From NCBI GenBank assembly GCA_029060725.1, contig JAIDTL010000129.1:1-64000 (forward strand): 64,000 nucleotides of DNA, read 5' to 3'. Position 1 is the stretch's first letter, and each line of letters begins with the position of its first letter. Under the pieces are notes generated by a model that worked only from the letters and a program-made list of their open reading frames with translations, was not told the origin of the DNA and searched no databases. A program made the position numbers and the translations under genes. Below are positions 17,841-41,129 of the stretch, one piece after another. This stretch comes from Muribaculaceae bacterium. GTDB taxonomy: Bacteria > Bacteroidota > Bacteroidia > Bacteroidales > Muribaculaceae.

Positions 17841-17870
17841 GTAGTTGCGTATTATTTACTATTCTTTTTG

Positions 17871-17878
17871 CAAAGATA
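17871..17878 (-). promoter_or_regulatory. putative -7 box (TATCTTTG) for the Rpn gene
   Basis: Minus-strand TATCTTTG upstream of start at 17840. Confidence 0.4.
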
Positions 17879-18047
17879 ATAAATTTTTGTCGATATTCGA
17901 TATTTTGGTAGTCTTTTTATGATTTTTCGAGTGAGAATGAAAAGGCAGAATGAATATGCTTTAGATATAATACTTATAGGAATAAGGGGAATTGGGACGA
18001 GAGGACATATATATTTGCAGTATGAATAGCAAATATAGTTACAAATT

Positions 18048-19250
18048 ATGGCATCTGTAAAAATAAAATTCAAGGCATCTTCTTTGCCGGAGCATGAAGG
18101 AACCATTTACTATCAGATTCTTCATGAGAGAAAACAACGTCAACTTTACTCCGATTATCATGTGTTCCCTACAGAATGGGATGATAACCGCTCGATGGTT
18201 ATTACAACTCATTCCAGTGAGCGCAAGTCCCTTATCCTTTCAATCAGGGAACGGATCCGTTGGGACTTGGAACGTCTCAACAAGATTATCCGCAAACTTA
18301 ATAACGATGGAATAACTTACACTGCAGATGATATCATTGAAGAGTTTAACCGTCACGTCAATGAATATTCACTATTCAATTTCATGGAGAGTCTCATTAT
18401 TAAATTAAAGCAGAATGGCAAGATCAGAACAGCAGAAACATATATTTCAACGCTCAATAGTTTCAAGAAGTTCCGTAGGGGCGAGGACATTATGCTTGAC
18501 TGTCTCAATTCGGATCTGATGGAAGCATACGAAGCATGGCATCGGCAGAGAGGGTTGACACCAAATACAATATCCTTCTATACTCGTATTCTTCGGGCTG
18601 TATACAACCGGGCGGTTGAAGATGAAATCATTGAGAACCGCAATCCATTCCGGCACGTATATACTGGAGTTGACAAGACAGTAAAACGAGCCCTTCCTCT
18701 TTCAGCCATCAAGAAAATAAAGGCCCTTGACCTGTCACTGATACCGGAACTCGATTATGCGCGAGATATGTTTATGATGAGCTTTATGCTTCGGGGAATG
18801 AGCTTCATTGACATGGCATATCTCCGTAAGACGGACCTCGCAAATGGATATGTCACATACCGTCGACGCAAGACAGGCCAACAACTTATCATCGAATGGA
18901 CGAAGGAAATGCAGATGATCCTCGACAAGTATCCTGAGAATTCGAGCGATTACCTTCTTCCGATAATAAGGAATAAGGGAGTCAACGACCGGACTACTTA
19001 TCGCAATGTAGGATACAACATAAACCACAATTTAAAACGTATAGCAATGAAAGCCGGAATCAGCATTCCCTTGACGCTATATGTAGCCCGTCACAGCTGG
19101 GCATCAGTAGCGAAAGCAAAAGGCATCCCACTCTCTGTAATCAGCGAAGGAATGGGACACGACAGCGAAACCACTACCCAAATTTACCTCGCCAGCCTCG
19201 ACACCTCCGTCGTCGACCGAGCCAACTCCATAATCCTGAAAAGTCTTTAG
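18048..19250 (+). CDS. tyrosine recombinase / integrase (Bacteroidetes type, SAM-like N-domain)
   Basis: C-terminal catalytic HxxW..Y: ARHSWASVAKAKGIPLSVISEGMGHDSETTTQIYLASLD; ~400 aa. Confidence 0.93.
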   Translation: MASVKIKFKASSLPEHEGTIYYQILHERKQRQLYSDYHVFPTEWDDNRSMVITTHSSERKSLILSIRERIRWDLERLNKIIRKLNNDGITYTADDIIEEFNRHVNEYSLFNFMESLIIKLKQNGKIRTAETYISTLNSFKKFRRGEDIMLDCLNSDLMEAYEAWHRQRGLTPNTISFYTRILRAVYNRAVEDEIIENRNPFRHVYTGVDKTVKRALPLSAIKKIKALDLSLIPELDYARDMFMMSFMLRGMSFIDMAYLRKTDLANGYVTYRRRKTGQQLIIEWTKEMQMILDKYPENSSDYLLPIIRNKGVNDRTTYRNVGYNINHNLKRIAMKAGISIPLTLYVARHSWASVAKAKGIPLSVISEGMGHDSETTTQIYLASLDTSVVDRANSIILKSL

Positions 19251-19297
19251 CGCCAACACCCGTATCTTTCGGATATCGGGCTTTTATTGTTTGTCAC

Positions 19298-19323
19298 TCA
19301 TCCAAATCTCTAAATTAGAGATA
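19298..19323 (+). repeat. palindrome-cored repeat, left copy
   Basis: TCATCCAAATCTCTAAATTAGAGATA; 25/26 identical to 19483-19508. Confidence 0.9.
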
Positions 19324-19463
19324 CTTATTTATTTTGCAAAGATAGTTAAAATTAGTAAAATTAGAAACTTTTTTAAGATAAAAATTGCTCTATTATCGAA
19401 TTTTCAGTTCTTAAAGTATCTTTTGTTTGGCGAAAATAATAAATATCCATGCATAGATTATTA

Positions 19464-19471
19464 TAAATTTG
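19464..19471 (+). promoter_or_regulatory. putative -7 box TAAATTTG upstream of UpxY-like gene
   Basis: TAnnTTTG match; no properly spaced -33 TTTG seen. Confidence 0.4.
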
Positions 19472-19482
19472 CACAATAGCTG

Positions 19483-19508
19483 TCATCCAAATCTCTAATT
19501 TAGAGATA
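19483..19508 (+). repeat. palindrome-cored repeat, right copy
   Basis: TCATCCAAATCTCTAATTTAGAGATA; core is exact reverse complement of left copy core. Confidence 0.9.
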
Positions 19509-19534
19509 ACAAAAAATTGTCATTATCTTACGAT

Positions 19535-20101
19535 ATGGCTGACTTTCAAGAATCACGAGGTGTTACGCCAGTCAATGGGACTGACGACCGCGAAGCGTAT
19601 CCGAAATTTTGGATTGCTGCATATACTAAGCCTCGTTCTGAGAAAAAAGCGGCCTCCGAATTGACAAAATTGGGTATTGAAACTTATGTGGCAACTCAAT
19701 ATCAAATTCGTCAGTGGAGTGATCGCAAAAAGAAAGTAGAAATTGTGGTTATTCCTTCAATCATATTTGCTCAGATATTCGAAGAGCAACTTACAAGTAT
19801 ATTATTTCACCGAAACATACTGAAGGTTATTACCCGTCCTGGAGAGAAGAAGGCAGCAAAAATACCTTCAGTTCAAATAGATAAACTCAAATTCATTCTT
19901 GGACAAACAGAAATCCCGGTATTATTTGATCCTAATCTTTTTTCCGTTCATAATACAGTTAGAGTAGTTCGAGGACCACTGAACGGATTGGAAGGTGAAG
20001 TAATACATTGTAATAATGACTCATCAGAACTAATTGTGCAAATAGATTTGCTTGGAGGTGCTCGTATGACTATTGATAAGAAAGAACTGGAACTAATATG
20101 A
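19535..20101 (+). CDS. UpxY-like transcription antiterminator (NusG paralog)
   Basis: WIAAYTKPRSEKKAASELTKLGIETYVATQYQIRQWSDRKKK N-domain and KOW VRVVRGPLNGLEGEV; ATG 19535. Confidence 0.9.
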   Translation: MADFQESRGVTPVNGTDDREAYPKFWIAAYTKPRSEKKAASELTKLGIETYVATQYQIRQWSDRKKKVEIVVIPSIIFAQIFEEQLTSILFHRNILKVITRPGEKKAAKIPSVQIDKLKFILGQTEIPVLFDPNLFSVHNTVRVVRGPLNGLEGEVIHCNNDSSELIVQIDLLGGARMTIDKKELELI

Positions 20102-21201
20102 TGATCAATATGTCCGTCAGAGACATTCTGGTTAAATTGAGCGAAATCACGTCGCCATCCTCCAATGAAGAGATGATGAGACAATATATTATGTCTAATT
20201 TTGGTGCGATGGTTGACAAGTTCTCAACTGATGCTCATGGCAATTTATTTCTCATGAAATGTGGCAGAAATAAAGTCAAAAAGACATTAATGATAGTTGC
20301 CCATATGGATGATATTGGAATTATTGTCACATATATTGAAGAAAATGGTCTTGCTAGATTTGACAAGATTGGTGGATTAGATGTCAATACCTTAATAGGA
20401 CAAAGGGTTAATTTGTTGACAAGCCATGGGATAATACAAGGGGTTATTGGAGCCGTTCCTCCTCATGTTAAGAAGGAAAACGGCCAAAAGACAGAAATCT
20501 CTGACCTGTGGATTGATATAGGTGCAACTAACAAACACGAAACTTCCACTATTTTAAGTATTGGGGATGTTGGAGTTATGAAATATGAATTTTCTGAATT
20601 ATTGGGAAATCGAGTAACTTTAAGTGCTGCCGACAATAAAGTAGGTATAACTATATTGATGTCGGCTCTAAGCAATTTGAGGGTAAAGGAGTTGGATAAT
20701 TTAGATATTATTTACATCGCAACCTCTCAGGAAGAAATCGGACTTCGTGGTGCATCTGCTCTATGTCAGGAATATCAACCTGATTATGCAATAGTTTTAG
20801 ATGTTACACATTCATCTGATTATCCGGGCATAAAAAAGGCCATATATGGTGATGTAAAACTTGGTAATGGCCCAGTAATTCCGATTAGTGCAGATTCCTC
20901 AAAAGTTCTACAGTCGTTTATTCGAGGTATCGCAACACGCAATCGCATACCTCATCAGATTCAAGCATTTGCCCGACCGACTGGAACGGACTTAAATGCA
21001 ATTCAGTTAAGACAACAACATACTCTAACAGGTTTAATTTGTGTTCCGTGTAGATACATGCACTCACCCAATGAAGTTGTTTCGATAAAGGATATTGAAG
21101 ACGCTTTAGATATTCTTACACGCTCAATAGAAGAATTAAATTCGGTAATATTGGATGAGCCGAATGCTTATTGTCCAATCGGTACTATTCCTGAAGAATA
21201 G
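20098..21201 (+). CDS. M42 family glutamyl aminopeptidase/endoglucanase-like metallopeptidase
   Basis: AHMDDIGIIVTYI, SQEEIGLRGA, PTGTDLNAIQ; ATGA overlap with upstream gene. Confidence 0.85.
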   Translation: MMINMSVRDILVKLSEITSPSSNEEMMRQYIMSNFGAMVDKFSTDAHGNLFLMKCGRNKVKKTLMIVAHMDDIGIIVTYIEENGLARFDKIGGLDVNTLIGQRVNLLTSHGIIQGVIGAVPPHVKKENGQKTEISDLWIDIGATNKHETSTILSIGDVGVMKYEFSELLGNRVTLSAADNKVGITILMSALSNLRVKELDNLDIIYIATSQEEIGLRGASALCQEYQPDYAIVLDVTHSSDYPGIKKAIYGDVKLGNGPVIPISADSSKVLQSFIRGIATRNRIPHQIQAFARPTGTDLNAIQLRQQHTLTGLICVPCRYMHSPNEVVSIKDIEDALDILTRSIEELNSVILDEPNAYCPIGTIPEE

Positions 21202-21223
21202 GATTTTTAATGGTTTAATCACA

Positions 21224-21340
21224 ATGGAAACCGGAAAATGCAAGTGGTGTGGTAAAGAGGTTCATGTTAGCATACTTATAAAGTTGGGAGGTTATTGCTG
21301 TCCAGCTTGTGCTATGGCTGGACGTCAACGTGAACGTTAA
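21224..21340 (+). CDS. 38-aa zinc-ribbon-like small protein
   Basis: METGKCKWCGKEVHVSILIKLGGYCCPACAMAGRQRER; CxxC...CCxxC. Confidence 0.6.
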   Translation: METGKCKWCGKEVHVSILIKLGGYCCPACAMAGRQRER

Positions 21341-21397
21341 AAAAAGGAGAAGCCGAAAGCCTAAAAAGTGGAGGCATAATGCATAATCAGTTTCAAA

Positions 21398-21589
21398 ATG
21401 TTTGATTTACTTAAACTATTTGAAGTAAAGCAAAAGCTACAGCTTTCACTTGCTGGTACAAACGCTTCTGCTCAAAGTTTTGCTTATTTTGAGAGCACCT
21501 GTACCGGCTGTGATGGCAATTGTTCCGGATCATGTGATGACACATGTGAAGGTTACTGCTCCGGTTGTGGTGATTGCGGAAGTAATTAA
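21398..21589 (+). CDS. candidate RiPP precursor, Cys-rich CXXX-repeat peptide (63 aa)
   Basis: Leader MFDLLKLFEVKQKLQLSLAGTNASAQSFAYFEST, core CTGCDGNCSGSCDDTCEGYCSGCGDCGSN; next to radical SAM gene. Confidence 0.75.
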   Translation: MFDLLKLFEVKQKLQLSLAGTNASAQSFAYFESTCTGCDGNCSGSCDDTCEGYCSGCGDCGSN

Positions 21590-21593
21590 CCGT

Positions 21594-21638
21594 GAGGCAA
21601 ATTCAGATATAATATATTTGAATTTGCCTCTTATTCTT
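21594..21638 (+). terminator. hairpin/attenuator between precursor peptide and radical SAM gene
   Basis: GAGGCAAATTCA (21594-21605) / TGAATTTGCCTC (21619-21630) perfect 12 bp stem, then TTATTCTTT. Confidence 0.65.
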
Positions 21639-21644
21639 TGTACT

Positions 21645-22757
21645 ATGGTAAATAAATCAAATCTTACAAGAGGCATTTATATTACAACAAATGTAACATG
21701 TAATCTGAATTGTGTCTATTGTTATGAGAAGGACAAAACATCAAAAGAAACGTTTTCTGTTGAGGCAGCGAAATCGGTTCTTAAAACCACACTGTCAACT
21801 ATTACTCCACGAGGTACATTAATTAACTTTCATGGTGGTGAACCATTTCTCTCCTTTGAAAAAATTAAGACTCTTTGTGAATGGGCGTGGCAACAAAATT
21901 TCCCTGAAAAGTTTACTTTTTTTGCGACATCCAACGGAACATTAATCCATGGAGCAATTAAGGATTGGTTATTTGAACATAGAAAAGAATTCATTGTAAG
22001 CCTCAGTTTGGATGGTACCCGTGAAATGCATAATGCTAACAGGTCAAATTCATTTGACAAGATTGATTTGGACTTTTTTATCAGCGCATGGCCACGACAA
22101 GGAGTAAAAGTCACGGTAAGTCCTTTGACTATTCATTCGTTAGCCGAGGGTATAAAATTTATACATGAAATAGGATTTACCGATGTTAGAGCTAATTTAG
22201 CTCAAATGACAGAATGGAATATCAATTATAAAGAAACATATGAACGTCAATTGAATATTCTATCCGAATACTATCTTGCAAATCCTCAGATAGAACGGTG
22301 TTCATTATTTAAAGTCCCGTTTCATGCTTTAAAGTCCAAGGTAATCAGGAAATGGTGTGGAGCAGGGACAGAGATGGAGGCAATTGATATTGACGGAAAG
22401 ACTTATCCATGTCATCTCTTTTTCCCATCAGTCTGCGGTAAAGAGAAAGCACAGAATTGCTTGGATTTTACTGATTATCGTAATTATACATCTTCATTTT
22501 GTATAAGTTGTCCTTTTTTAGCAATATGTCCCACTTGTTATGGAAGTAATTTCATTGAAAGAGGAGATATCTGTTTACGTGATATGAATCTATGCGAACT
22601 TGAGAAAATACGGTTTAAGGTTGTTGCACAATTTGAATACAAAAGAATTGTAGAATCTAGTTACGACCTTAATGCTCTCTCAATTGAAGAAAGGCACAAG
22701 AGATTAGCTACTTTAGAAGGTATTGAATTGATATCTGATCATTTATCCGCTATTTAA
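21645..22757 (+). CDS. radical SAM/SPASM peptide maturase
   Basis: CNLNCVYCYEK (CX3CX2C); GGEPFLSF; SPASM C-terminus CISCPFLAICPTCYGSN...C; start moved from 21450 to ATG 21645. Confidence 0.85.
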   Translation: MVNKSNLTRGIYITTNVTCNLNCVYCYEKDKTSKETFSVEAAKSVLKTTLSTITPRGTLINFHGGEPFLSFEKIKTLCEWAWQQNFPEKFTFFATSNGTLIHGAIKDWLFEHRKEFIVSLSLDGTREMHNANRSNSFDKIDLDFFISAWPRQGVKVTVSPLTIHSLAEGIKFIHEIGFTDVRANLAQMTEWNINYKETYERQLNILSEYYLANPQIERCSLFKVPFHALKSKVIRKWCGAGTEMEAIDIDGKTYPCHLFFPSVCGKEKAQNCLDFTDYRNYTSSFCISCPFLAICPTCYGSNFIERGDICLRDMNLCELEKIRFKVVAQFEYKRIVESSYDLNALSIEERHKRLATLEGIELISDHLSAI

Positions 22758-22764
22758 GTTCTCT

Positions 22765-23292
22765 ATGGATTTATTTATTCGACGCCAACAAACATCAGAC
22801 ATAGAGCTATTAGGCAGTTGCTTAAGTGATTCTGAATTCATCTCAAATATATGGGGTCATAAAAGCATAACTTTGGATGAGTTTTTAGACAGATATTCTT
22901 ATCTCAATTACGTTATAGGAGAGTTATCAAATATTGAGAGACCTCTTGGTTTTTTTATTATAAAACCATATAATTTTGAAGAAGATGAATTAAATCCACA
23001 TTCTAATTTTTTCTTTTATGGAGGGATTAGGCCTTGTCTTTTTAACAGTGGGTGTGGAATCTATTTATGCTCTACAATGCTTCATTTCTTTTTCGATATA
23101 TATCCAGCGTCTAATTTATATGCCAATGTTTTTGTAGCTAATAATAGATCTCGAAGAATGCTTTTGGCACTTGGATTTAAAATTCTACGAGAAAACTGTG
23201 ACTCGACATCTCTCCGTATTTGTCGCGATGAATATCTCTCTTCTTTTCTAAATCAATGGATAAATAAAAAAATATCATATATAGTGATGTAA
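22765..23292 (+). CDS. GNAT-like acetyltransferase
   Basis: LYANVFVANNRSRRMLLALGFKILREN typical GNAT motif. Confidence 0.6.
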   Translation: MDLFIRRQQTSDIELLGSCLSDSEFISNIWGHKSITLDEFLDRYSYLNYVIGELSNIERPLGFFIIKPYNFEEDELNPHSNFFFYGGIRPCLFNSGCGIYLCSTMLHFFFDIYPASNLYANVFVANNRSRRMLLALGFKILRENCDSTSLRICRDEYLSSFLNQWINKKISYIVM

Positions 23293-23320
23293 CGATGCCC
23301 CATTGTAGTTATCAAACAAA

Positions 23321-23488
23321 ATGTTGCCCCCAGAGCGGATTAATAAAATTATAGACTTAGTTGCCGACTTAAGACGTATAATTCTTCTTAATCATATATG
23401 CGGATATGCGGAGAAAGTCGGCAAAGCGGAAAAGGTTTCTATCCTGATTGATGAAATTTTGTATACTTTCGAGGAATCGTTTGAGTAA
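23321..23488 (+). CDS. hypothetical 55-aa protein
   Basis: MLPPERINKIIDLVADLRRIILLNHICGYAEKVGKAEKVSILIDEILYTFEESFE; fills a gap in the tightly packed operon. Confidence 0.45.
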   Translation: MLPPERINKIIDLVADLRRIILLNHICGYAEKVGKAEKVSILIDEILYTFEESFE

Positions 23489-23539
23489 ATATTAACGATT
23501 CGAACTTGCTAAATAAGATCACATAATTAACAATACATT

Positions 23540-24532
23540 ATGATAAAGCAATTTTTTAATAAAGTTATATCAGCGTTACTTCCTAATGTGTCTCAAGAAG
23601 AACAAACATCTTTTGATCAGAAAAAAGGAGTTGTGGCACCTCGCCAACGTGTACTCAATAAACTCAAGGAACAATTCTTGACTGAGATGGCCAATGAAAC
23701 AACCACAGAAAGTCTTTTATATCACACGTCATTTACCGTATATATTAGAGAGACAGAGTACGATAGACTTTCACCCAGTTTTGCGCAAACTGTTCGTGAT
23801 GCCATAAATATATTTATAAGGGAATTGCGTAAAGTTGTTAAGAATTATCCGGACTATCAAAATCACTCAAAATACTGGGAGATGCAACTTGTAGCAATTC
23901 CAGAAGACTCGGAGATAGATGGAATCAGTACGGAAATATTAGCTGAAAATCCCATCATCATACGGTCAAAATTGTTTGCAGATAATCAATATGATTTCCG
24001 TATACAAGATGATATTCATTGTGTAACAACAATTCATACGAAAGATTCATCAAAAGAAATGCCCAATGCTTTTAACCTTGCATCTTTGAAAGGATTAACA
24101 GAATTGGCAAAAGACAAATATCGAGTCGAGTTTAATCTGAAAGATGCAGTAAGTGAAACTCCTAAAAGCGAGGCTGACAAGTCAAGCAATAAAAAGGATG
24201 TTCATGCAACTCTTCATATCGTTGACGGAGATTTTATTCTCGGAGAACGAAAATATCGCGTTTACAACATGACCGGCGATAAGTTGCTTGTATCCGGTAA
24301 AAATGGTTCTGCATCAAACATTAACGATGAAATCCATATAAATGATGAATCTGTCTTAAATCCCACATTGGAAATAATCCGAGATAAGAAAACAGGACTA
24401 TTTTCCATGAAGATATGGGGCGATGTTAAGATGGGTGGCAAACGTATTGAACCCGGTACGGTAGTTACATTGCCTCACAATTCGAGCATTATGATAAATG
24501 ATGATTACCAGATAGATTTTACAACCAGATAA
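23540..24532 (+). CDS. FhaA-like protein: DUF3662-like N-domain plus FHA-like C-domain
   Basis: FTVYIRETEYDRLSPSFAQTVRDAINIFI resembles FhaA N-domain; C-terminus LLVSGKNG..NDEIHINDESVLNPTLEII FHA-like. Confidence 0.6.
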   Translation: MIKQFFNKVISALLPNVSQEEQTSFDQKKGVVAPRQRVLNKLKEQFLTEMANETTTESLLYHTSFTVYIRETEYDRLSPSFAQTVRDAINIFIRELRKVVKNYPDYQNHSKYWEMQLVAIPEDSEIDGISTEILAENPIIIRSKLFADNQYDFRIQDDIHCVTTIHTKDSSKEMPNAFNLASLKGLTELAKDKYRVEFNLKDAVSETPKSEADKSSNKKDVHATLHIVDGDFILGERKYRVYNMTGDKLLVSGKNGSASNINDEIHINDESVLNPTLEIIRDKKTGLFSMKIWGDVKMGGKRIEPGTVVTLPHNSSIMINDDYQIDFTTR

Positions 24533-24534
24533 TT

Positions 24535-24615
24535 ATGAATTTTCTGTTTATCATAGGACTATGTTGCTTGGTGGGCTACTTGTTTTATTCTCATTTTAAG
24601 TCATTACCCAAATGA
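24535..24615 (+). CDS. 26-aa single-TM micropeptide
   Basis: MNFLFIIGLCCLVGYLFYSHFKSLPK; stop overlaps ATG of PP2C gene (ATGA). Confidence 0.5.
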   Translation: MNFLFIIGLCCLVGYLFYSHFKSLPK

Positions 24616-25712
24616 CAGAAAGCAAATACTCCGCTAAGTATTTTGGTGCAACCAATCAGGGTATGGTACGTATCAATAATGAGGATACCTATATTTGTCA
24701 AAAGATATGGGATGAGAGTCATATACTCTGTGCTGCAATTGACGGATTAGGAGGATATGAAGGAGGAGAGATCGCAGCTGAACTGGCACGCACTACTATA
24801 ATAAAACATCTAGAAGATTTTGCATCTAAGAAGACCGGAGAGTTATTGAAAGCTTCACTCATAGCTGCGAATAACGAAATTATACGCCAACATGAGGCTC
24901 GGCCGAGAGTATCTCAGATGGGATGCGTTGCTTCGGTTGGAATTATTGACCTGTCGCAAGGGGTTATAACTATTGCGCATGTTGGAGATTCTCGTATATA
25001 CCAATTTGTAAAAGGAGAGTTGAAAAAACTGACCCATGACCATTCATTAGTTGGTTATAGAGAAGAAACCGGTGAATTATCGGAAGAGGATGCAATGAAT
25101 CATCCCAAAAGAAATGTTATAGATAAATTCCTTGGGGAACAACATTTGAACTTTGATTCTGAAAGCTATGTGGAAGTTTCTGTCTGGCCAATAACAGGAG
25201 ATACACAATACCTATTTTGCTCTGACGGTTTAACAGATTTAGTAACAAGTACGCAGATTTCCAACATCCTCTCTTCTGAAGAATCTATCAAAGAAAAAGT
25301 GGGAAACCTCATATCCTCTGCGAACGAAGCTGGAGGCAAGGATAACATTACTGTGGTATTATCAGATATAAAAGTGAATGTGGACAATACAACAATAATG
25401 AGTCCTGAAGATGAATGTCATATTATAGAACCCACAATCAATAAAGCCTCGTTTCATCATAAGAGTTTTATATGTGGTGGATTTTTAGGTATGATACTTG
25501 GTGTGAGTGGAATGTACACCTTTCAACGAGTTGTTCATGAAGCAACCGAATTGGAAACTCATACACAAACATACACTGGCAAACAATGGTTCGATTCCCA
25601 AGAAAATATAGAGCTTAAACGTGAAATTGCGATTCTGAAGGACTCTATTGCAAAATTCTCAGTAACATATAAGAACAATCAGACTGATTCAAAAGAAGAT
25701 AAAAACTATTGA
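24612..25712 (+). CDS. PP2C family Ser/Thr phosphatase with C-terminal TM helix
   Basis: DGLGGYEGGEIAAELA, AHVGDSRIYQF, FCSDGLTDLV, GGKDNITVVL. Confidence 0.93.
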   Translation: MTESKYSAKYFGATNQGMVRINNEDTYICQKIWDESHILCAAIDGLGGYEGGEIAAELARTTIIKHLEDFASKKTGELLKASLIAANNEIIRQHEARPRVSQMGCVASVGIIDLSQGVITIAHVGDSRIYQFVKGELKKLTHDHSLVGYREETGELSEEDAMNHPKRNVIDKFLGEQHLNFDSESYVEVSVWPITGDTQYLFCSDGLTDLVTSTQISNILSSEESIKEKVGNLISSANEAGGKDNITVVLSDIKVNVDNTTIMSPEDECHIIEPTINKASFHHKSFICGGFLGMILGVSGMYTFQRVVHEATELETHTQTYTGKQWFDSQENIELKREIAILKDSIAKFSVTYKNNQTDSKEDKNY

Positions 25713-25766
25713 TAATCATAGTTAGGACTAACAAAGTTCTCAATATTATTTTCAATATAACTTGCC

Positions 25767-29915: not shown

Positions 29916-29919
29916 GGAT

Positions 29920-31851: not shown

Positions 31852-31863
31852 ACAATTAAACTT

Positions 31864-32520
31864 ATGATGAGAGTAATAGCATTACTTATTCTTTCTATCT
31901 GTGTGAGCATTAATGTCAGTGCTCTCTCAAGCTACATCCTCACAGAGGAAGATAAGGAACAAGTAAAAGAACGTATAATAGATAAACTCGAAGATTTTCA
32001 ATTTTGGCTTGGAGAAATTGCAAACAAGAAGAACTCTCAGAAAGTTCGAACAGACGCACTCAAGTCTAATATCGTGCTTTTTATCGGAAAATGTGACCCT
32101 TATACTGTTACTAATCATAAAACTGGAGAGCTTGAGGTAAAAGAAGCTGTTAAAATGCAGACATCCTCAGTGCGAAATGGAAAGGAAGTTAAAAATCCAC
32201 CTCAACGGATGAAACAGTACCTCTACAATATTTTAAATAATGAGACCTACAGTAATATTAAAATAGAACAAGCTGATGCGGTACGAGTCGATAATATAAG
32301 ACAAGTAGGAGACGGCGAATATGAGGCTGTGGCTTACTTTTGTCAGTATTTTACCGGCTATCGAGGTGAAGAAAATTATGTAGCATATAGCGATTACACT
32401 GAAAAGGCTGTAAGAATTTCAATTGGTCTTGAGGAGGTTAGACATGCGGGCAAAACTGAAAAAATAATAAAAATTAAATTAGGCGACATGAAAGTTGCCC
32501 TTACTGAACGGTTAAGGTAA
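31864..32520 (+). CDS. exported hypothetical protein
   Basis: Signal peptide MMRVIALLILSICVSINVSA; no family recognised. Confidence 0.7.
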   Translation: MMRVIALLILSICVSINVSALSSYILTEEDKEQVKERIIDKLEDFQFWLGEIANKKNSQKVRTDALKSNIVLFIGKCDPYTVTNHKTGELEVKEAVKMQTSSVRNGKEVKNPPQRMKQYLYNILNNETYSNIKIEQADAVRVDNIRQVGDGEYEAVAYFCQYFTGYRGEENYVAYSDYTEKAVRISIGLEEVRHAGKTEKIIKIKLGDMKVALTERLR

Positions 32521-32524
32521 CTAT

Positions 32525-33337
32525 ATGAAAACCACTTATTTATTTTATATGCGGTTAATAGGTATCTTGATAATTATCTTAATACCATTTAATAATGCAA
32601 AAGCTCAACTTCTATTGGGTTCTCATGAATTCGAGGATCAACTGTATGATTCACATGTGAAAAGTTTAGATGAATTTATTCAACGCTTTAACGGACGAGA
32701 GATTAACCAGCTAGCTTCTCAGAATCAAATAAATAAAGTAAGAGCAACTAGATTTTCATTATTTGATTATGAATTATTAAAGGATATTGATAGAAACGAT
32801 TCTATCCCAAGCATATATGAGAAGTTTATTTTCGATATTGAAGCTGATTCAATATCTATAGCAATTGAGGACTCCCTTAATTGGGTAGAAGCTAAATGTG
32901 ATTTTAGTTGGAAAAACGCTCCAAAATCATTATCACTTAAATTGCAACTTGAGGAAGATGGCAATCATTGTTGGCGGTGGTGCATTATCGGAGTAAATGG
33001 ACTTAAAGACTGTAGTCTTCTTGATGAAGAAGGCACATTACAAATTAGTCCGGTAGATCATGAATTAAACTTTATAGGGTTAGAAAGTCTTTTCTTGCAC
33101 GACTCAATGAAATTTGCTAAAACAAGGAAAGACGGAATACCAATTGATGAACTATCATATTTCTATGGTCTGGTTTATTCAGGTTTGCTAAAATATAATA
33201 GATGTGATAGTGTTGAATTTCATTGTAACCAAATTCCAGGATATTCTTTCATCGTAAAGGAAATAAATCGATTGAAATCATCAAATTCAGGCTGGTTGAT
33301 AGTATCTCTCAAAAAAACAATAACTGCAAACACTTGA
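32525..33337 (+). CDS. exported hypothetical protein
   Basis: Signal-like MRLIGILIIILIPFNNAKA. Confidence 0.65.
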   Translation: MKTTYLFYMRLIGILIIILIPFNNAKAQLLLGSHEFEDQLYDSHVKSLDEFIQRFNGREINQLASQNQINKVRATRFSLFDYELLKDIDRNDSIPSIYEKFIFDIEADSISIAIEDSLNWVEAKCDFSWKNAPKSLSLKLQLEEDGNHCWRWCIIGVNGLKDCSLLDEEGTLQISPVDHELNFIGLESLFLHDSMKFAKTRKDGIPIDELSYFYGLVYSGLLKYNRCDSVEFHCNQIPGYSFIVKEINRLKSSNSGWLIVSLKKTITANT

Positions 33338-33342
33338 CCATT

Positions 33343-34131
33343 ATGAAAAAAATAATCAGTATTGTCACGATTCTTTTAGTATTAATGTCTTCGTTGACCA
33401 CAAAGTCAGAGACATATCTAAAGGGTGAATTTGCATCCAGTAATATATGGATCGATCTATTAGGAATTTTGGCTACTTATGCCATAAATAAACCCAAGAA
33501 AAACATTGTAGTTGATAGCTACCTGACATTTTCGGGTATAGGGATTGATGTTGACCCGTATATAAACAAAACTATTATCTCTACTTCTTCTGACAATATT
33601 ATTAAACCTTTGTATGGTTTTAAATTGCAGGAGCTTTTCAATGGATTCGGAACAGGAATAAAGTATGGATACCGCAACGATTATGAATACTTTCTTAAAT
33701 CTTGGGCAGTATATGGATCACTGCACGAAACGTATAATTATTATCTCATTGATGTAAATATTATAGGAGAAGGAAATAAAACATACGGCAATTCTGTTTT
33801 AAGACTATCTCCGGGAATTGGAACAAATATTACTTTGGGTAAATATACTTCTCCGGTGTATGTATTATTGGATTTTAATCTAAAATATGATATCCCTATA
33901 ATATATAAAGGGTATTTTGGAAGTGGCCCCGGATGTCTGAAGTCTGGGTATTCTCCTCGCATAACTGCGATAGTTGGGGGACCTCATTTGCGTAAACTTG
34001 GGTTGAATGTAGGTGTCTTTTACGAATGGATGAATTATAATTTATTCAAACCGAGCGAATATTTCATTGAACCTTACAAAAGTAAAGGCATGACGTTTGG
34101 TATGAACGTTACAATGTACCCATGGAACTGA
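33343..34131 (+). CDS. exported hypothetical, possible outer-membrane beta-barrel
   Basis: MKKIISIVTILLVLMSSLTTKSE signal; alternating aromatic/Gly-rich strands; ATG 33343 chosen over TTG 33334. Confidence 0.6.
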   Translation: MKKIISIVTILLVLMSSLTTKSETYLKGEFASSNIWIDLLGILATYAINKPKKNIVVDSYLTFSGIGIDVDPYINKTIISTSSDNIIKPLYGFKLQELFNGFGTGIKYGYRNDYEYFLKSWAVYGSLHETYNYYLIDVNIIGEGNKTYGNSVLRLSPGIGTNITLGKYTSPVYVLLDFNLKYDIPIIYKGYFGSGPGCLKSGYSPRITAIVGGPHLRKLGLNVGVFYEWMNYNLFKPSEYFIEPYKSKGMTFGMNVTMYPWN

Positions 34132-35063
34132 GAATCTATACGTTTTTTATAATATTTACCCTGAATTGCATCCCTGCAGCAGCGTCTACTAAAAATTCAG
34201 CTACCCCGGCTCCAGTTAGGACATTCTTAAATAATTTGGAAAGACTACAGCTGCTGTCAGATGATCAATCAGATGAAGCATCAAGGTTAAATTACGAGAA
34301 CCGAGATTGCTTTGCAGGTGGAACTGCTGAGGGAAATGGGGTGAAAATTCATAATAGTGAACTTTACTTTTTAAATATTAGCATAAGTTATGGTGCCAGT
34401 CAATATTGTAACAATCTTTTTACTTTATTGTACAGGAATCGGGACTTAAAACTTTCACATGATATTGTAAGTACCGAACCTATTGTTTTCGCTGATGCCA
34501 ATGGTAAAGATGAGATACGTTTTTATGATACTAAAGTAAAGAAAACGTGTATTTACAATGGTGAAGAAAAAGTGTTTTGGCAAAAATTTGGAGTTGATGC
34601 CGAGGATGAATTAATTGATACATTGGAGGGATATGATAGCAAGCCATCCAATTGGGAAGGTAACATTTCAGATAAATCTAATAAAAAAACTAATATAGAG
34701 CGTGGAGGATCCCAGCAATCAGAACAAGGAAATAAACTATATACTCCACCCATTCAAGAGACGCTGCCACAAACAGAAAAGGAATTGCTCCGATTGGCGG
34801 CCCGGTATTATACATCGAAAGACTATTCTTCGGCAACTAAAACACTTCATCAACTAACAGCCAAATATCCTAATAATGCTGAAGCCTGGTATAGGTTGGC
34901 GACCATAATCAGGTTTAAAAATAAATGGAGTAAAAATGTATATGCTAAACCTAAAGAGACTGCTATCGAATATATGAGAAAAGCTGTAAACTTGGCAACA
35001 GGTAGCCTAAAAACGAAAGCTGAAAGAGCACTGTTTGATTGGGAACATCCATACAGCATGTAA
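34122..35063 (+). CDS. exported TPR-containing hypothetical protein
   Basis: C-terminal TPR-like LRLAARYYTSKDYSSATKTLHQLTAKYPNNAEAWYRLA; overlaps upstream stop. Confidence 0.65.
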   Translation: MELRIYTFFIIFTLNCIPAAASTKNSATPAPVRTFLNNLERLQLLSDDQSDEASRLNYENRDCFAGGTAEGNGVKIHNSELYFLNISISYGASQYCNNLFTLLYRNRDLKLSHDIVSTEPIVFADANGKDEIRFYDTKVKKTCIYNGEEKVFWQKFGVDAEDELIDTLEGYDSKPSNWEGNISDKSNKKTNIERGGSQQSEQGNKLYTPPIQETLPQTEKELLRLAARYYTSKDYSSATKTLHQLTAKYPNNAEAWYRLATIIRFKNKWSKNVYAKPKETAIEYMRKAVNLATGSLKTKAERALFDWEHPYSM

Positions 35064-35082
35064 TATCAATTATATTTAAACA

Positions 35083-36480
35083 ATGAGCTTCTTAAGAAAA
35101 ATAGCGGAATTAATAAACGGGACTTCATCTAATACCACAAATATTGATGGAGAAGCGGATAGTGGAAAGGTTACTCCAAATACACATGAAGAAGAGGCGT
35201 CCTTTCTCGAAAATGACGACGCGTCTCAAAAGTCTAAATCAATCGAGGTGCAAAAGGATTTAGGGACTTCATTTGATAAACGTATATTAAATTCTGAGGC
35301 TCTCTCAGAGCAACGTTACGGGTGGCATCTCTACTTATTAGAGATTCTTTCGTCCCTGTCGGAAAGTAAACCTGAAAATCTCAAATATCTTTCTATCTAT
35401 ATTCTGAAAGACAACAGGGACTATAGGTGGAATGATGATGCTTTCAGGGGTGAGCTTCGTCAAGCCCTTGATAAAAGAAACCTTGCTCACATTGGTTCTT
35501 CGTCAATCGTTATAGAGGCAGTTTCAGAAAAAACGTTTAAACAACTTACCGAGAAAACAGTTACAGACACTCAGTATAAGCGGCAGATTGATAATCTAAT
35601 CCTTTTTGGAAGCAAAAAAGAAACTACTGAACAAAAGTTTGCAACAGCTATTGATAAGCGTGCTTTTGTAATTAACGAACTGCTGAAAAAGTTCCGCAGT
35701 TCTACCGGTACTGATACTAATCTTATGGAGAATCTTGTCATAATAGTCATTCGTAATGAAGAAGATGATGACATGGCTAAATATGATTGGATTGGCAAGC
35801 GTTTTGAAGATGATCTGAAGCGAGAACTCACAAATGCCTTTCTCGAACAGATTGGAAGTAAATCGTTGCAGATAATTCTTAAACCGAAATCAGAAACAGA
35901 AGATTGTATCAGTCTTATTGACAACCAAGTCTATTATAAATGGGGCAAAGCTGATACATCTGAGGACGATAAGCCGAAAGAAATTCCCTACGAGCGAGTT
36001 ATTGCATCTATTTCAATTATTGAAGGCACCGGGTCAATGATGCAACCTTCTTATGTACTTGATTCTGACCGTAAGAAAATATTCCATATAGGACGTGGTG
36101 TAACATCACGTAAAGGTGGCAAATATCGAGTAAACGATATTGTTATTAAAGACAAAGAAGCAGATCATGATCTTCTTGAATACAATGCGCATGTCAGCAG
36201 CACACATGCAGATATTGTATTCAAAAACAATAAGTTCTATATTAAGGCGGCCATCGGTGGTTGTCGTGCGATTGGAGGAAGTCCCACTAAGTTAGTTCGT
36301 GACGAAAAAGCTATAGAATTAAGAGACACAAATCTTCTCTATCCTTTGGAAGACGGAGATATTATTGAGTTAGGGAAAAATGTCCTGTTAGTCTTTTCTC
36401 TTACAGATGATGGCTCTTTGCCAATGAATTTTGAAAAAGAGAGGCCTAATAATGCAATGTCGATAGACGATTCTTTCTAA
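35083..36480 (+). CDS. FHA domain protein with two related N-terminal modules
   Basis: FHA: HIGRGVTSR..YRVNDIVIKD..NAHVSSTHADIVFKNNKFYIKA..LEDGDIIELG. Confidence 0.8.
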   Translation: MSFLRKIAELINGTSSNTTNIDGEADSGKVTPNTHEEEASFLENDDASQKSKSIEVQKDLGTSFDKRILNSEALSEQRYGWHLYLLEILSSLSESKPENLKYLSIYILKDNRDYRWNDDAFRGELRQALDKRNLAHIGSSSIVIEAVSEKTFKQLTEKTVTDTQYKRQIDNLILFGSKKETTEQKFATAIDKRAFVINELLKKFRSSTGTDTNLMENLVIIVIRNEEDDDMAKYDWIGKRFEDDLKRELTNAFLEQIGSKSLQIILKPKSETEDCISLIDNQVYYKWGKADTSEDDKPKEIPYERVIASISIIEGTGSMMQPSYVLDSDRKKIFHIGRGVTSRKGGKYRVNDIVIKDKEADHDLLEYNAHVSSTHADIVFKNNKFYIKAAIGGCRAIGGSPTKLVRDEKAIELRDTNLLYPLEDGDIIELGKNVLLVFSLTDDGSLPMNFEKERPNNAMSIDDSF

Positions 36481-36491
36481 TCCTTTATTTT

Positions 36492-37928
36492 ATGGAAGAT
36501 AAGATAAAACAAGTATTTCCGGATGCTTCGGTAATGAAGTCTGGTATAACTGACACCCTGTTTGCAGGTAGAAATCTCCCCGTTTTTGTCCGTGATTACA
36601 TTCTCAGACGTTTTTCTGACGAACATGGCAACGTTGATAAAGAAGCTTTATCAAACTACTTCGATGAGAAAATGGGAGTAGAGGGTCAGATTCTTAAGAA
36701 TCGGTTATTCAGCGGAAGAGAACGAGTGAACGTAACTTCTCGTGTTGTTTTTAGGACTGAATTGGACAAAGGCACAGTGTGGTTTGACCTGCCTGATGCC
36801 GGGATTACTAAAGACGCACGTGTTTCGCCCCAACTTATTCAAGAACAGCCGGAATGGTTTTGTGATGGCGAACATTGGGGTAATATGACGATGAGATATG
36901 TAGAACCTCAAGGTAAAGAGAAAGGTCATATACTTATGATTTCCTTCAAACCCTTTGAACCATATTCAGTTAATTTTGATTACTATCTTAATGCACGTTG
37001 CAAATTCGATACAATAGAATGGATTGACACACTTGTAAAGATAATGGGGTATAATCCAGATTCGTTTGAGAATACTGATGTGAAATTAGAACTTATCAGT
37101 CGCTTACTTCCGTTTGTTGAACCACGATTGAATATCATTGAACTTGGTCCCAAAGGTACTGGTAAGTCATATCTCTATAACAATTTCAGCAAACGGGGAT
37201 GGATTATCAGTGGTGGAAAGATTACTCGTGCTAAACTATTCTTCAATAAACAGAACCGTCAGTTCGGACTTCTAAAGCATTATGACGCCCTCGCTATTGA
37301 TGAGATAGCATCTTTCTCTTTTGAAAATCCGGCTGAAATGCAGTCCATATTTAAGTCTTATTTAGAAGATGGAAGAGCAACAGTAGATAACACTGTATTT
37401 CAATCAGATTGTGGTTTAACGCTAATGGGTAATATTCCGGTTGATGGAGAAACTCGACAACCTTTAGATTCTGCCTATTACAAAGTCCTTCCCGCAATGC
37501 TTCAGGAATCTGCCACTCTTGATCGTTTTCATGGATTTATAGAAGGTTGGAAACTTCCTCGTCTTGAATCAGGGACAATTCTTAATGGCTGGACACTGGA
37601 TGCGGAGTATTTCTCCAATATCCTTCATCTACTACGCACCCGAACAGAATATACTTCAATTTTTGATGAATTGATTGAGGAATCTTCAAGTGATATAAGA
37701 GACCGGAAAGCAGTTAAGCGTCTTTCAACAGCATACCACAAACTACTCTTCCCTCAAATACGGAATCTGAATGATTTGAGTGATGAAACGCTTGAACGCT
37801 TCAAAGCTACATATAAGAAATATTGCTTAGATCCAGCTATATCACGCCGTGGTATTATTCGTAAGCAATGCTATGCAATTGATAAAGAGTTCTCTGAATC
37901 AATGTCCGAATTCCGAATAAAATGTTGA
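36492..37928 (+). CDS. BrxL-like (Lon-related) AAA+ ATPase, short form
   Basis: ELGPKGTGKSYLYNNFSKRGWIISGGKITRAKLFFN; YDALAIDEIASFSF; LMGNIPVDGETRQPL; LPAMLQESATLDRFHGFIEGWKLPRL. Confidence 0.8.
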   Translation: MEDKIKQVFPDASVMKSGITDTLFAGRNLPVFVRDYILRRFSDEHGNVDKEALSNYFDEKMGVEGQILKNRLFSGRERVNVTSRVVFRTELDKGTVWFDLPDAGITKDARVSPQLIQEQPEWFCDGEHWGNMTMRYVEPQGKEKGHILMISFKPFEPYSVNFDYYLNARCKFDTIEWIDTLVKIMGYNPDSFENTDVKLELISRLLPFVEPRLNIIELGPKGTGKSYLYNNFSKRGWIISGGKITRAKLFFNKQNRQFGLLKHYDALAIDEIASFSFENPAEMQSIFKSYLEDGRATVDNTVFQSDCGLTLMGNIPVDGETRQPLDSAYYKVLPAMLQESATLDRFHGFIEGWKLPRLESGTILNGWTLDAEYFSNILHLLRTRTEYTSIFDELIEESSSDIRDRKAVKRLSTAYHKLLFPQIRNLNDLSDETLERFKATYKKYCLDPAISRRGIIRKQCYAIDKEFSESMSEFRIKC

Positions 37929-38098
37929 GATAGATATTTATGAAGAAATCATAAGTTATTTGAAGTACAATCTAAATTTTAGTAAACGTTATAACATTAT
38001 CTTACGCAAGCCGATTACTCAAAATCAAATTTTTCCCGATAATGCTCAGGAGTAGCAGTAAATTTTTTATGGCATATTAGGTTATTGGAATTATTAGT

Positions 38099-39232
38099 AT
38101 GAATTATAAATTATTAAGCATCTATTGCCTTATTGGTTTAATGTTCATAAGCTGTTCAAGGAATCACAGTTATGAAGATCAAATTTCCAGAATCCTTGTC
38201 TACGATGACGAGGTTGGAGAATATACAGATGGACAGATAGAGAAGGTTTTTAAACTGATTGAAGACAATCCAGAGACATTGGATTATGATTTTTCCGAAG
38301 AATTACCGATGATTGTTGTAACTTCTGATGATGGGAAAGTGAGAGCCTATGTGATTGAAAAATATGATTTCGGTGGCAATCCATCGGCTGGATTTGAAAC
38401 AAGTACATTAATTCAGTACAAAGTTGGCAACGAGATTTATACAACTCATTTAGATGAAGAATTTCCAATAGTTAAATCGATTGCGCATCTTTCTGACAAT
38501 TTTTATCTCATTATAGATTGGTGGGGATTCATTGCTCAGGGCGAACACAATCATAACAGGGCAAGAGTATTTAAGATAGACGAATGGGATTTAAAAATGT
38601 GCTCTAATATATTCAGAGATAATGAAAATAACAAAAATCAAATAGAAATATATTGGAATGATGATGATTTCTTGGATGATTCTATGCCTAATTATTATGA
38701 ACTTCAGGAAAAGCTTATAGATGAAGCAAATGCAGATTTTGATTTAGGTATAGTTTATAATAAGAATTTGAAAGATTTATATATTCCAAATATTATCCAT
38801 ACTCCTCACCAATATGAAATTATGGATGGAACGTTCAGCCGATTCTATTGGACTGGCAAATATTTTATAGATGCAACTCTTATGGATCCTTTGGAAAGGA
38901 TGAATAATGATTATTTTATTCGCATAGAACAGGAATCGGATGGTTCATGTACCTATAGATGTTGGAATGGAGGAGTAATAATTGGGAAACCGGCTTTAAC
39001 TATTAGAAACGGTAATAGACAAGTTTGGGGAGAATATGGTATCTATGATTACAATAAATGGATTTCATTAGATGAATCATACATATTGGGTGAGACATAT
39101 TCTTTCGAAAATAAAGGTTATAGATATATTTATAGAATTGGACGGGATAGAGGATATAAAATAGAGGACTTAGAAGTATATGATCCTAAGGGAGAATTGG
39201 TATACTCAGGTCGTTTTGAACCGGTTCATTGA
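38099..39232 (+). CDS. lipoprotein, unknown function
   Basis: Lipobox IGLMFISC near N-terminus. Confidence 0.65.
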   Translation: MNYKLLSIYCLIGLMFISCSRNHSYEDQISRILVYDDEVGEYTDGQIEKVFKLIEDNPETLDYDFSEELPMIVVTSDDGKVRAYVIEKYDFGGNPSAGFETSTLIQYKVGNEIYTTHLDEEFPIVKSIAHLSDNFYLIIDWWGFIAQGEHNHNRARVFKIDEWDLKMCSNIFRDNENNKNQIEIYWNDDDFLDDSMPNYYELQEKLIDEANADFDLGIVYNKNLKDLYIPNIIHTPHQYEIMDGTFSRFYWTGKYFIDATLMDPLERMNNDYFIRIEQESDGSCTYRCWNGGVIIGKPALTIRNGNRQVWGEYGIYDYNKWISLDESYILGETYSFENKGYRYIYRIGRDRGYKIEDLEVYDPKGELVYSGRFEPVH

Positions 39233-39244
39233 GCTATTCTGTGT

Positions 39245-39769
39245 ATGCCCATTATGAGGACTTTAAACTCCAATAAAAGCAAACAGTTAGCATATCTTCT
39301 TCGACACGATCGTAATTATGATTTTGAGATTGGAGGCTGGAGAGAGTTAACTGATTTATGTCAACGTTATTCCTTTACGACGGAGGATATTGTTGATATT
39401 GTGTCAAATGATAGCAAAGGTAGGTTTGAGTTTAATCCTGATAAGACCAAGGTTCGAGCATTGTATGGACACTCGGTTAAAATAGATTTATTGTTACGCC
39501 AACAAGAACCACCTCTACGATTATATCATGGAACTGCGTTAAAATACGTTGAGTCAATCCGAAATAATGGACTTATATCCAAATCCCGACAATATGTTCA
39601 TCTAACAGAAGACAAGTACTTGGCAATAATGACCGGCTCCCGACATGGACAGGCTGTTTTACTTGAGATTAATTCTCTGGCAATGTTCAACGATGGATAT
39701 AACTTTTACCACACTAATAATGGAACGTGGTTAACAGCAGAAGTCCCTATTCAATATATATTATTTTAA
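39245..39769 (+). CDS. KptA/Tpt1-like RNA 2'-phosphotransferase
   Basis: KSKQLAYLLRHD, WRELTDL, VRALYGHSV, LYHGTALKYVESIRNNGL, RQYVHLTED, GTWLTAEVPIQYI. Confidence 0.82.
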   Translation: MPIMRTLNSNKSKQLAYLLRHDRNYDFEIGGWRELTDLCQRYSFTTEDIVDIVSNDSKGRFEFNPDKTKVRALYGHSVKIDLLLRQQEPPLRLYHGTALKYVESIRNNGLISKSRQYVHLTEDKYLAIMTGSRHGQAVLLEINSLAMFNDGYNFYHTNNGTWLTAEVPIQYILF

Positions 39770-39787
39770 ATCTACATTCTTAATAAT

Positions 39788-41044
39788 ATGCTTCTACCAA
39801 TTTTTGAATGGCTCAATGAACTTGGAATGCCCGGTGCCAATGTAATGGAATATATTACATTCCGTGCTGTTATGGCTTTTGTATTTGCTCTCGTTGTCAC
39901 AATGTTGATAGGCGGAAGAATCATACGCTATCTACGCCGAAAGAAAATTGGGGATGAGCCACGGGACCTTGGAATAGATGGTCTCGAAAGTAAAAAAGGT
40001 GTGCCGACGATGGGTGGTATCATCATATTTATGTCAATACTTATCCCTGTTCTTCTTTTTTGCAGGTTATCAAATATATATGTTTTACTACTGATTGGAA
40101 CTACACTTGTCCTAACCGGCTTGGGATTTATTGATGATTATATAAAGACATTCAAGCATAATAAGGAAGGGCTATCCGGACGATGGAAAATTGTAGTTCA
40201 GGTTCTTCTTGGGGTTTTCATAGGTGCTACTCTATATTTTAGTTCAGATACAGTTATTAGAGAGAATACTGAAACTTATTCGGGAGAGACGGTAGTAGTT
40301 AATATTAGCTCGGATGAGGTTAAATCAACTAAAACTACAATACCGTTTATAAAAGAGAATAATTTTGACTATAGCTGGATAGCTAAGCCCCTTCCGGTTG
40401 ATTGGCAACAAACGGCGGGATGGATAATATTTGTTATTGCCACAATTCTAATTGTAACAGGGACGTCTAACGGAGCTAACCTTACTGACGGTCTTGATGG
40501 GTTGACCGCTGGTATCAGTGCAATTATTGGTGTTGGATTAATGATACTTTCTTATGTCTCAAGCCATATCGTTTTTGCTTCATATCTAAATATTATGTAC
40601 GTTCCCGGGACTGAAGAAGTATTTATATATACAGCGGCTTTTACCGGGGCTTGTATGGGATTTCTCTGGTATAACGGTTTTCCTGCCAAAGTATTCATGG
40701 GGGATACCGGAAGTTTGATGCTTGGAGGTGTAATTGCAGTAGTAGCAATCATACTTCACAAAGAAATTTTACTTATACTACTATGTGGTATATTCCTCGC
40801 AGAAGCTTTAAGTGTAATATTACAGACCGGTTATTACAAGTTTACAAAGAGGAAGGGAGTCCCAATGAGAATATTCAAGAAGACTCCACTGCATCATCAC
40901 TTTCAGCATAACGCTGGAGAGATTAAAAGTCTTTTAGATAATGTGCCTTCTCGTAAATGGCATGAACAGACAATTGTACTACGTTTTTGGCTCATATCTA
41001 TAATCCTCTGTGCATTAGCCATTCTAACACTTAAGATCAGATAA
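39788..41044 (+). CDS. mraY: phospho-N-acetylmuramoyl-pentapeptide-transferase (isolated copy)
   Basis: KKGVPTMGGIIIF, NLTDGLDGLTAG, FMGDTGSLMLGG, KKTPLHHHFQ. Confidence 0.93.
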   Translation: MLLPIFEWLNELGMPGANVMEYITFRAVMAFVFALVVTMLIGGRIIRYLRRKKIGDEPRDLGIDGLESKKGVPTMGGIIIFMSILIPVLLFCRLSNIYVLLLIGTTLVLTGLGFIDDYIKTFKHNKEGLSGRWKIVVQVLLGVFIGATLYFSSDTVIRENTETYSGETVVVNISSDEVKSTKTTIPFIKENNFDYSWIAKPLPVDWQQTAGWIIFVIATILIVTGTSNGANLTDGLDGLTAGISAIIGVGLMILSYVSSHIVFASYLNIMYVPGTEEVFIYTAAFTGACMGFLWYNGFPAKVFMGDTGSLMLGGVIAVVAIILHKEILLILLCGIFLAEALSVILQTGYYKFTKRKGVPMRIFKKTPLHHHFQHNAGEIKSLLDNVPSRKWHEQTIVLRFWLISIILCALAILTLKIR

Positions 41045-41129
41045 ACATGGAAGAAGATTATGTTATCTTGAAGTAATATATTCTGAACTTAAATTTGGTG
41101 CTCAGCATGTAAAGTTTTTGGGAAAATGC

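Follow-up and report, generated by a model that had tools for sequence, protein, structure and literature searches.

An inserted island in a Muribaculaceae genome with a kinase-linked SEDS–PBP wall-synthesis module behind a putative invertible promoter

We analysed a 64,000-nt stretch of contig JAIDTL010000129.1 from a Muribaculaceae bacterium (assembly GCA_029060725.1), hereafter the window, which contains an AT-rich island with genes for a tyrosine recombinase and a UpxY-type antiterminator near its left end. We consider it probable that this island has spread horizontally and is a phase-variable operon, dependent on UpxY, whose product is an auxiliary peptidoglycan synthase controlled by a Ser/Thr kinase. 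The synthase joins a SEDS (shape, elongation, division and sporulation) polymerase to a class B penicillin-binding protein (PBP) in one polypeptide, and its gene is accompanied by genes for forkhead-associated (FHA) proteins, a PP2C phosphatase and a PknB-type kinase.

According to the mechanism that we propose, the recombinase encoded at 18048 would flip a 168-bp promoter segment within 19306-19507. In the ON orientation the transcript would begin with the UpxY gene, and UpxY would load on RNA polymerase and carry transcription on for ~21 kb. The result would be a spare late wall pathway, in which a second MraY would make lipid I and the fused SEDS-PBP protein would polymerise and cross-link glycan within a single chain; the kinase and the phosphatase would set a phospho-state, and the FHA proteins would read it to assemble or gate the synthase. 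A cassette for a ribosomally synthesised and post-translationally modified peptide (RiPP), a BrxL-like protein, a lipoprotein and a KptA-like protein would be co-expressed cargo. The likely benefit would be that, under a block of the housekeeping MraY, FtsW, RodA or PBPs, part of the population could continue wall synthesis. Most known cases of phase variation in gut Bacteroidales concern surface sugars and outer-membrane proteins. If the proposal is true, each cell could turn wall-building machinery on or off, and the cargo of the switch would be core wall synthesis, at which beta-lactams, bacteriocins and phage lysis proteins act; cell-to-cell heterogeneity in wall-stress tolerance would therefore be directly testable.

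Extent of the island and its wall-synthesis module

The neighbours of the island are a helicase gene ending at 16888 on the left and bipA at 41158 on the right. These two genes are directly adjacent in three relatives of the same genus (genomes and loci G314/L166, G344/L169 and G333/L168), and the insert was therefore placed from ~16.89 to 41.09 kb; at the empty sites, ~85-170 bp of unaligned sequence lie between the matching parts. The right end is independently backed by homology to an island fragment from another genus (L224 in genome G035), which runs to 41091 and takes in the start of a 134-aa open reading frame (ORF) that is truncated in the window. We found no terminal direct repeats longer than 10 bp at the island ends and no tRNA or Rfam landmarks. 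The GC content of 16889-41091 is 0.373, versus 0.479 in the left and 0.460 in the right flank; its profile runs at 0.33-0.45 within the island and mostly at 0.43-0.52 outside, and tetranucleotide usage shifts clearly across the same segment. The AT-rich, one-strand island is a genuine insertion. A first-pass annotation had described an AT-rich block of ~23 kb (18048-41044) with all genes on one strand. Its compositional claim agrees with the GC and k-mer profiles, and all large ORFs of that interval are indeed on the plus strand; its extent needed correction, as the insertion begins at about 16.89 kb, includes a minus-strand transposase gene and ends at ~41.09 kb. The main features of the island and of its wall-synthesis module are as follows.

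16889..41091: inserted island, ~24.2 kb, between the helicase gene and bipA (empty sites; L224 homology)
23540..24532, plus strand: FHA1, FhaA-like, with an N-terminal alpha/beta domain and a degenerate FHA domain (AlphaFold2 model)
24612..25712, plus strand: PP2C Ser/Thr phosphatase with one transmembrane (TM) helix, PstP-like (PF13672; NF033484, 194 bits)
25767..29915, plus strand: fusion of SEDS polymerase and class B PBP transpeptidase, 1382 aa (PF01098 and PF00905)
29920..31851, plus strand: PknB-type Ser/Thr kinase with a TM helix and an extracellular Big_2 domain (PF00069, PF02368)
31864..35063, plus strand: four exported-type proteins (31864, 32525, 33343 and 34122, the last with TPR), with hydrophobic N-termini
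35083..36480, plus strand: FHA2, canonical FHA domain (GR and S invariant, N conserved)
39788..41044, plus strand: second MraY, at the right-hand end of the insert (TIGR00445, 288 bits against a cut-off of 192)

The fusion protein has 14 predicted TM segments, and its catalytic motifs are intact: D641 (the SEDS Asp, in the HTD motif), S1071xxK1074, S1123-S-N and K1301-T-G are invariant across 14 relatives. Residues ~1-285 (25767-26620) form a conserved domain between the first two TM helices, probably periplasmic and without a Pfam match, which is a candidate sensor or activator. The best PDB matches of the kinase are StkP and PknB. The phosphatase score is under the NF033484 cut-off of 230 bits, and its TM helix lies at about residue 286. 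Homologues of the four exported-type proteins occur in the same order in L054, a syntenic island in another genus. The FHA2 family matches PF00498 in 15 of 17 members. For FHA1, the sequence profile gave no match in the window protein (FHA was matched by only 5 of 18 members), and structure prediction was therefore used. The C-terminal part of the model matches FHA structures (Foldseek E=4.5e-6). Pfam detected no FhaA_N domain in FHA1; the top match of the N-domain model in the whole PDB, a weak one (E=0.13, TM-score 0.47), is 2LC0, the N-terminal domain of Mycobacterium tuberculosis Rv0020c (FhaA), the protein predicted in advance by gene order.

In an alignment with the native copy, the island MraY keeps the DD, NxxDG and HHH motifs. 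The native gene lies on contig C80, between genes reading as murE and murD, and its product is 49% identical to the island protein. Since the copy in the G035 island is 96% identical, the comparison points to recent transfer of MraY between genera. The first-pass annotation had stated that no glycosyltransferase or capsule genes follow UpxY; a glycosyltransferase-4 family protein is in fact present, but it is this second MraY and not a capsule enzyme. In L224 (3567-5450), a short distance after the start of the contig, KptA (81% identical to the window protein) accompanies MraY; G035 yielded no SEDS-PBP fusion.

Recurrence of the module and its likeness to known wall loci

To determine the distribution of the module, we scanned one genome per species, 84,980 species in all, for SEDS-PBP fusions and obtained 337 candidates, the best 79 of which were used for module counts. 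All of these best 79 loci belong to Bacteroidota (Bacteroidales, Spirosoma, Fibrella, Larkinella, Pedobacter, Mucilaginibacter and Chitinophagaceae). Partner genes are present in most of them: FHA2-type in 75/79, kinase in 72/79, PP2C in 72/79 and FHA1-type in 70/79. Independent annotation of a Spirosoma oryzicola plasmid (NZ_CP089545) gives the series FHA, PP2C, two Ser/Thr kinases, FtsW/RodA/SpoVE and FHA. The core module is a recurring unit, not a random collection. It is accessory: 17 of 297 genomes in the family carry it, as do 15 of 396 in the phylum, where some of the matches are part-length only, and its neighbours vary from one genome to another. No SEDS-PBP fusion was found in phages. 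In a tree with long branches and no actinobacterial outgroup, the fused SEDS domains group together and separately from native FtsW/RodA of the compared genomes (100/100).

The closest likeness is to the actinobacterial locus fhaA-fhaB-pstP-rodA-pbpA-pknA-pknB, which encodes PstP, RodA, PbpA, PASTA kinases, FhaA and FhaB (PMC6554272). Both loci link FHA proteins, a PP2C phosphatase with a TM helix, a SEDS protein, a class B PBP and a PknB-type kinase, and the window retains the order FHA-PP2C-SEDS/PBP-kinase. However, the actinobacterial rodA and pbpA are separate genes, whereas the window has one 1382-aa ORF; the window kinase has a Big_2 domain only and no PASTA, which the actinobacterial kinases carry; the window module is accessory and mobile, in contrast to a conserved core locus; and it sits under a putative DNA-inversion switch and UpxY. 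Because the content is shared but the fusion, Big_2 and the accessory distribution differ, we liken the module to the actinobacterial locus, by analogy with which it would work, without counting it as a member.

SEDS-PBP proteins encoded by a single ORF occur naturally (PMC10449877). These, like the engineered fusions, which are functional (PMC10449877, PMC6207328), resemble the window protein in carrying a SEDS domain and then a class B PBP on the same chain. The window protein differs from them in its extra conserved N-terminal domain, in its place within an FHA/PP2C/kinase operon and in belonging to a SEDS group of its own apart from native FtsW/RodA. In the open full-text literature, with subscription papers outside the search, we found no description of a Bacteroidota FHA/PP2C/kinase operon, of its phase-variable control or of UpxY at its head. 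We regard the operon as a variation on known types, although there is an appreciable chance that it is a system of its own. A broader proposal, which we advance only tentatively, is that Bacteroidota possess an accessory, mobile counterpart of FhaA-PstP-RodA-PbpA-PknB, derived by shared ancestry and not by convergence, with a bifunctional SEDS-PBP protein, and that in some gut lineages an inversion switch and UpxY would turn it into a second wall machine with its own MraY in part of the population. As a Gram-negative system, the module sets a single natural SEDS-PBP polypeptide beside a PknB-type kinase, PP2C and FHA proteins, and it would offer a simple setting for the question of how kinase signalling gates a wall synthase.

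The putative invertible promoter and the operon head

Upstream of the module, the island begins its plus-strand series with the following elements.

18048..19250, plus strand: tyrosine recombinase, read as a local DNA invertase (PF13102, PF00589, PF17293)
19306..19322, plus strand: left inverted repeat ATCTC-TAAATTA-GAGAT, 17 nt, 100% complementary to the right repeat
19323..19490: candidate invertible promoter segment, 168 bp, with a promoter match on the minus strand
19491..19507, plus strand: right inverted repeat ATCTC-TAATTTA-GAGAT, pairing with the left repeat
19535..20101, plus strand: UpxY-type antiterminator (NF033644, 127 bits against a cut-off of 100)

The recombinase and UpxY that the first-pass annotation had placed at the head are thus recognised by their domain profiles. 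Between the end of the recombinase gene and UpxY, the window carries two perfect 17-nt inverted repeats, 168 nt apart. At the same place in L054 the repeats are 20 nt exact (29 nt at 90%) and 265 nt apart; those of L196 are 13 nt long and 171 nt apart, and those of L034, upstream of a UpxY remnant, 11 nt and 161 nt apart. All four loci share the layout arm-N7-arm, and in 4/4 the 7-nt spacers are reverse-complementary (TAAATTA/TAATTTA, CACAAAA/TTTTGTG, TAGATAA/TTATCTA and TTGATAA/TTATCAA). The spacer sequences vary among the loci, and therefore the spacer pairing has been maintained. Markov shuffles of the window segment gave inverted repeats of at least 13 nt in 0.35% and of at least 17 nt in 0.05% of cases; the extended site has two copies in the whole genome, both at the island head. 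In the window, L054 and L196, the recombinase gene lies next to the paired sites.

Among Bacteroidota-type promoter matches in the window segment, the best, TTTC-N19-TATCTTTG, lies on the minus strand, with the -7 box starting at 19344, and faces away from UpxY. L054 has its best match on that strand too, and in L034 a CAAAGATA motif likewise lies just inside the left repeat. Because these matches point away from UpxY, the assembled copies are probably in the OFF orientation. From the paired inverted sites and the promoter-like sequence inside them, we infer a putative invertible promoter. The sequence TAAATTTG at 19464 was considered as a driver of UpxY in the present orientation and rejected, as it has no -33 partner and a better match lies on the opposite strand.

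In Bacteroides fragilis, the tyrosine recombinase Tsr19 inverts the promoter beside it and controls an extracellular polysaccharide (EPS) promoter (PMC4747536, PMC3090145). Because this inversion of an adjacent promoter is established, the 18048 gene most likely encodes a local DNA invertase rather than an integrase. The alternative, that it is the island integrase and that the repeats at 19298/19483 are att-type direct repeats without any switch, draws on a 26-nt direct repeat with one mismatch at these positions and on the location of the gene close to the left end of a young insertion. We find it distinctly improbable: the repeats lie inside the island, end repeats were not found, the L054 repeats are exclusively inverted, and reverse-complementary spacers recur in every locus compared.

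UpxY is the first gene of the putative operon. The short gaps or overlaps noted in the first-pass annotation were found: genes overlap at 20098 (4 bp between the UpxY and M42 peptidase genes) and at 34122 (10 bp, with the 33343 gene), and 24612 follows a 79-bp gap. Gaps after UpxY are below 80 bp, except for the largest, 170 bp, ahead of the lipoprotein gene. A scan of 23200-41200 for sigma-70-type promoter and terminator patterns, which does not cover Bacteroidota promoters, gave no more than chance. The island shares with the phase-variable UpxY operons of Bacteroides and the Tsr19 EPS promoter (PMC4747536, PMC3090145) a tyrosine recombinase, promoter-flanking inverted repeats, a UpxY-family antiterminator and a long operon. 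Unlike those polysaccharide operons, it has wall synthesis, a kinase circuit and a RiPP cassette as cargo; domain searches recognised no UpxZ and no polysaccharide genes (capsule export, polymerase or sugar assembly) among the island genes. The first-pass interpretation is supported in part: its suggestion of an antiterminator-headed envelope regulon other than a capsule holds, and in L057 and L034, too, the wall module is immediately preceded by a UpxY-like gene or its remnant. In L034 (genome G282, 2100-2530) the inverted-repeat element is retained, UpxY is cut to ~115 bp, the RiPP genes are missing and the wall module follows directly; judged by its sequence, this locus is a natural deletion of the antiterminator.

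Composite order, cargo and competing explanations

The long composite order recurs in another genus (G062; L054, L035 and L225) at 26-69% protein identity. It runs through recombinase, UpxY, M42, RiPP precursors and radical SAM proteins, GNAT, FHA1, PP2C, SEDS-PBP, kinase, four secreted-type proteins, FHA2, further genes, BrxL, lipoprotein and KptA; the genes between FHA2 and BrxL include a glycosyltransferase, two radical SAM proteins and others. L196 carries the recombinase through GNAT and then reaches the contig end. L057 has a UpxY-like gene, FHA1, PP2C, SEDS-PBP, kinase, six ORFs, FHA2 and BrxL, without RiPP genes, and a short contig of G077 holds BrxL (95%) and the lipoprotein. The composite forms one unit, parts of which can be separated. 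Synteny across genera (L054/L225) agrees with the first-pass view of the genes as one set. The RiPP cassette is separable from the rest of the island: it stands alone in L197 and L198 and is missing from L057. The remaining genes of the island are as follows.

16983..17840, minus strand: Rpn-like transposase of the PD-(D/E)XK nuclease family, bordering the insert on the left (PF12784, E=2e-55); the sole minus-strand gene of the island, not present at the empty sites
20098..21201, plus strand: M42 aminopeptidase, possible leader or product peptidase (PF05343, E=2.6e-78)
21398..21589, plus strand: Cys-rich RiPP precursor, 63 aa, with C-x2/3-C repeats (from sequence)
21645..22757, plus strand: radical SAM/SPASM-type peptide maturase (PapB and CXXX-repeat maturase matches)
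22765..23292, plus strand: GNAT acetyltransferase of the RiPP cassette (weak PF13302)
36492..37928, plus strand: BrxL-like AAA+ protein, short (TIGR02688, 388 bits against 329)
38099..39232, plus strand: lipoprotein with no assigned function, co-occurring with the module
39245..39769, plus strand: KptA/Tpt1 RNA 2'-phosphotransferase family protein (PF01885, E=2.6e-33)

Precursor homologues adjoin radical SAM genes in L054, L196, L197 and L198, and GNAT is retained in all four. As in CXXX-repeat and PapB-type clusters, a Cys-rich precursor is followed directly by a radical SAM maturase. The window maturase, in contrast, scores below the equivalog cut-offs (PapB, 130 bits versus 340; CXXX-repeat maturase, 124 versus 350), and cassettes of the window type are joined to GNAT and the M42 peptidase and are UpxY-headed in three loci. 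A 38-aa CxxC...CxxC ORF at 21224-21340, between the M42 gene and the precursor, may code for a small zinc protein or else for a second peptide.

Several observations weigh against a switched, kinase-controlled wall operon. In the window and L196 the outer arms TCATCCAA are direct rather than inverted, L196 has its best promoter match elsewhere than the other loci, and the evidence on the orientation of the segment comes from assembled copies. Domain assignments are homology-based, a wall function is not obvious for BrxL and KptA, and most module loci lack the UpxY and RiPP genes. The last point, which extends to BrxL and KptA, also favours a composite of independent cargo, in which the RiPP cassette, the wall-kinase module, BrxL and KptA would have gathered behind one regulated promoter with no common job, as do the standalone RiPP cassettes. 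We rate this explanation as rather unlikely: the long order is kept in another genus at considerable protein divergence, BrxL lies directly behind FHA2 in the window, L057 and L076, and 4 of the 5 genomes that carry the lipoprotein, among 297, also have the module (Fisher p=3.6e-5), which ties the two together. The lipoprotein gene is followed by KptA in four genomes, G007, G062 and G035 among the named cases.

Target duplication is a common route to self-resistance. Together with the shared operon head of RiPP and wall genes in the window and G062, it could make the island a RiPP immunity locus, in which the peptide would attack wall synthesis and the second MraY and SEDS-PBP would form the producer's resistant bypass under one switch. 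This seems improbable to us, given that L057 and nearly all module loci lack RiPP genes, that standalone RiPP cassettes lack wall genes and that no dedicated exporter was seen beside the precursor.

The strong BrxL score (556 bits in PADLOC) and a general resemblance of the kinase to PD-T4-6 and MADS kinases could point to an anti-phage defence island around BrxL, the kinase and KptA. The window BrxL has the BrxL N-domain and ATPase domain above cut-off, as in bacteriophage exclusion (BREX) systems, but it stands behind an FHA gene and without other BREX proteins: domain and profile searches found no PglZ, BrxC/PglY, PglX or methyltransferase among the island genes. Defence as the main function, one of the possibilities raised in the first-pass annotation, is therefore not supported. 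The kinase matches are generic to the fold and the conserved neighbours are wall enzymes, and we consider a defence island highly improbable; BREX and MADS assignments were both rejected.

The flanks, not the island, contain a dispersed REP-like (repetitive extragenic palindromic) repeat of ~110 nt, made up of three hairpins (CGCCTCTCCGAGGC, CCCCGGACTGAAGTCCGGGG and CAGCTCTCCGAGCTG), with four copies at 43325-43450, 59330-59445, 10628-10745 (minus strand) and 8900-9020 (minus strand). A 45-bp tandem repeat (43421-43587; 3.7 copies, 99%) begins at the last hairpin of one of these copies.

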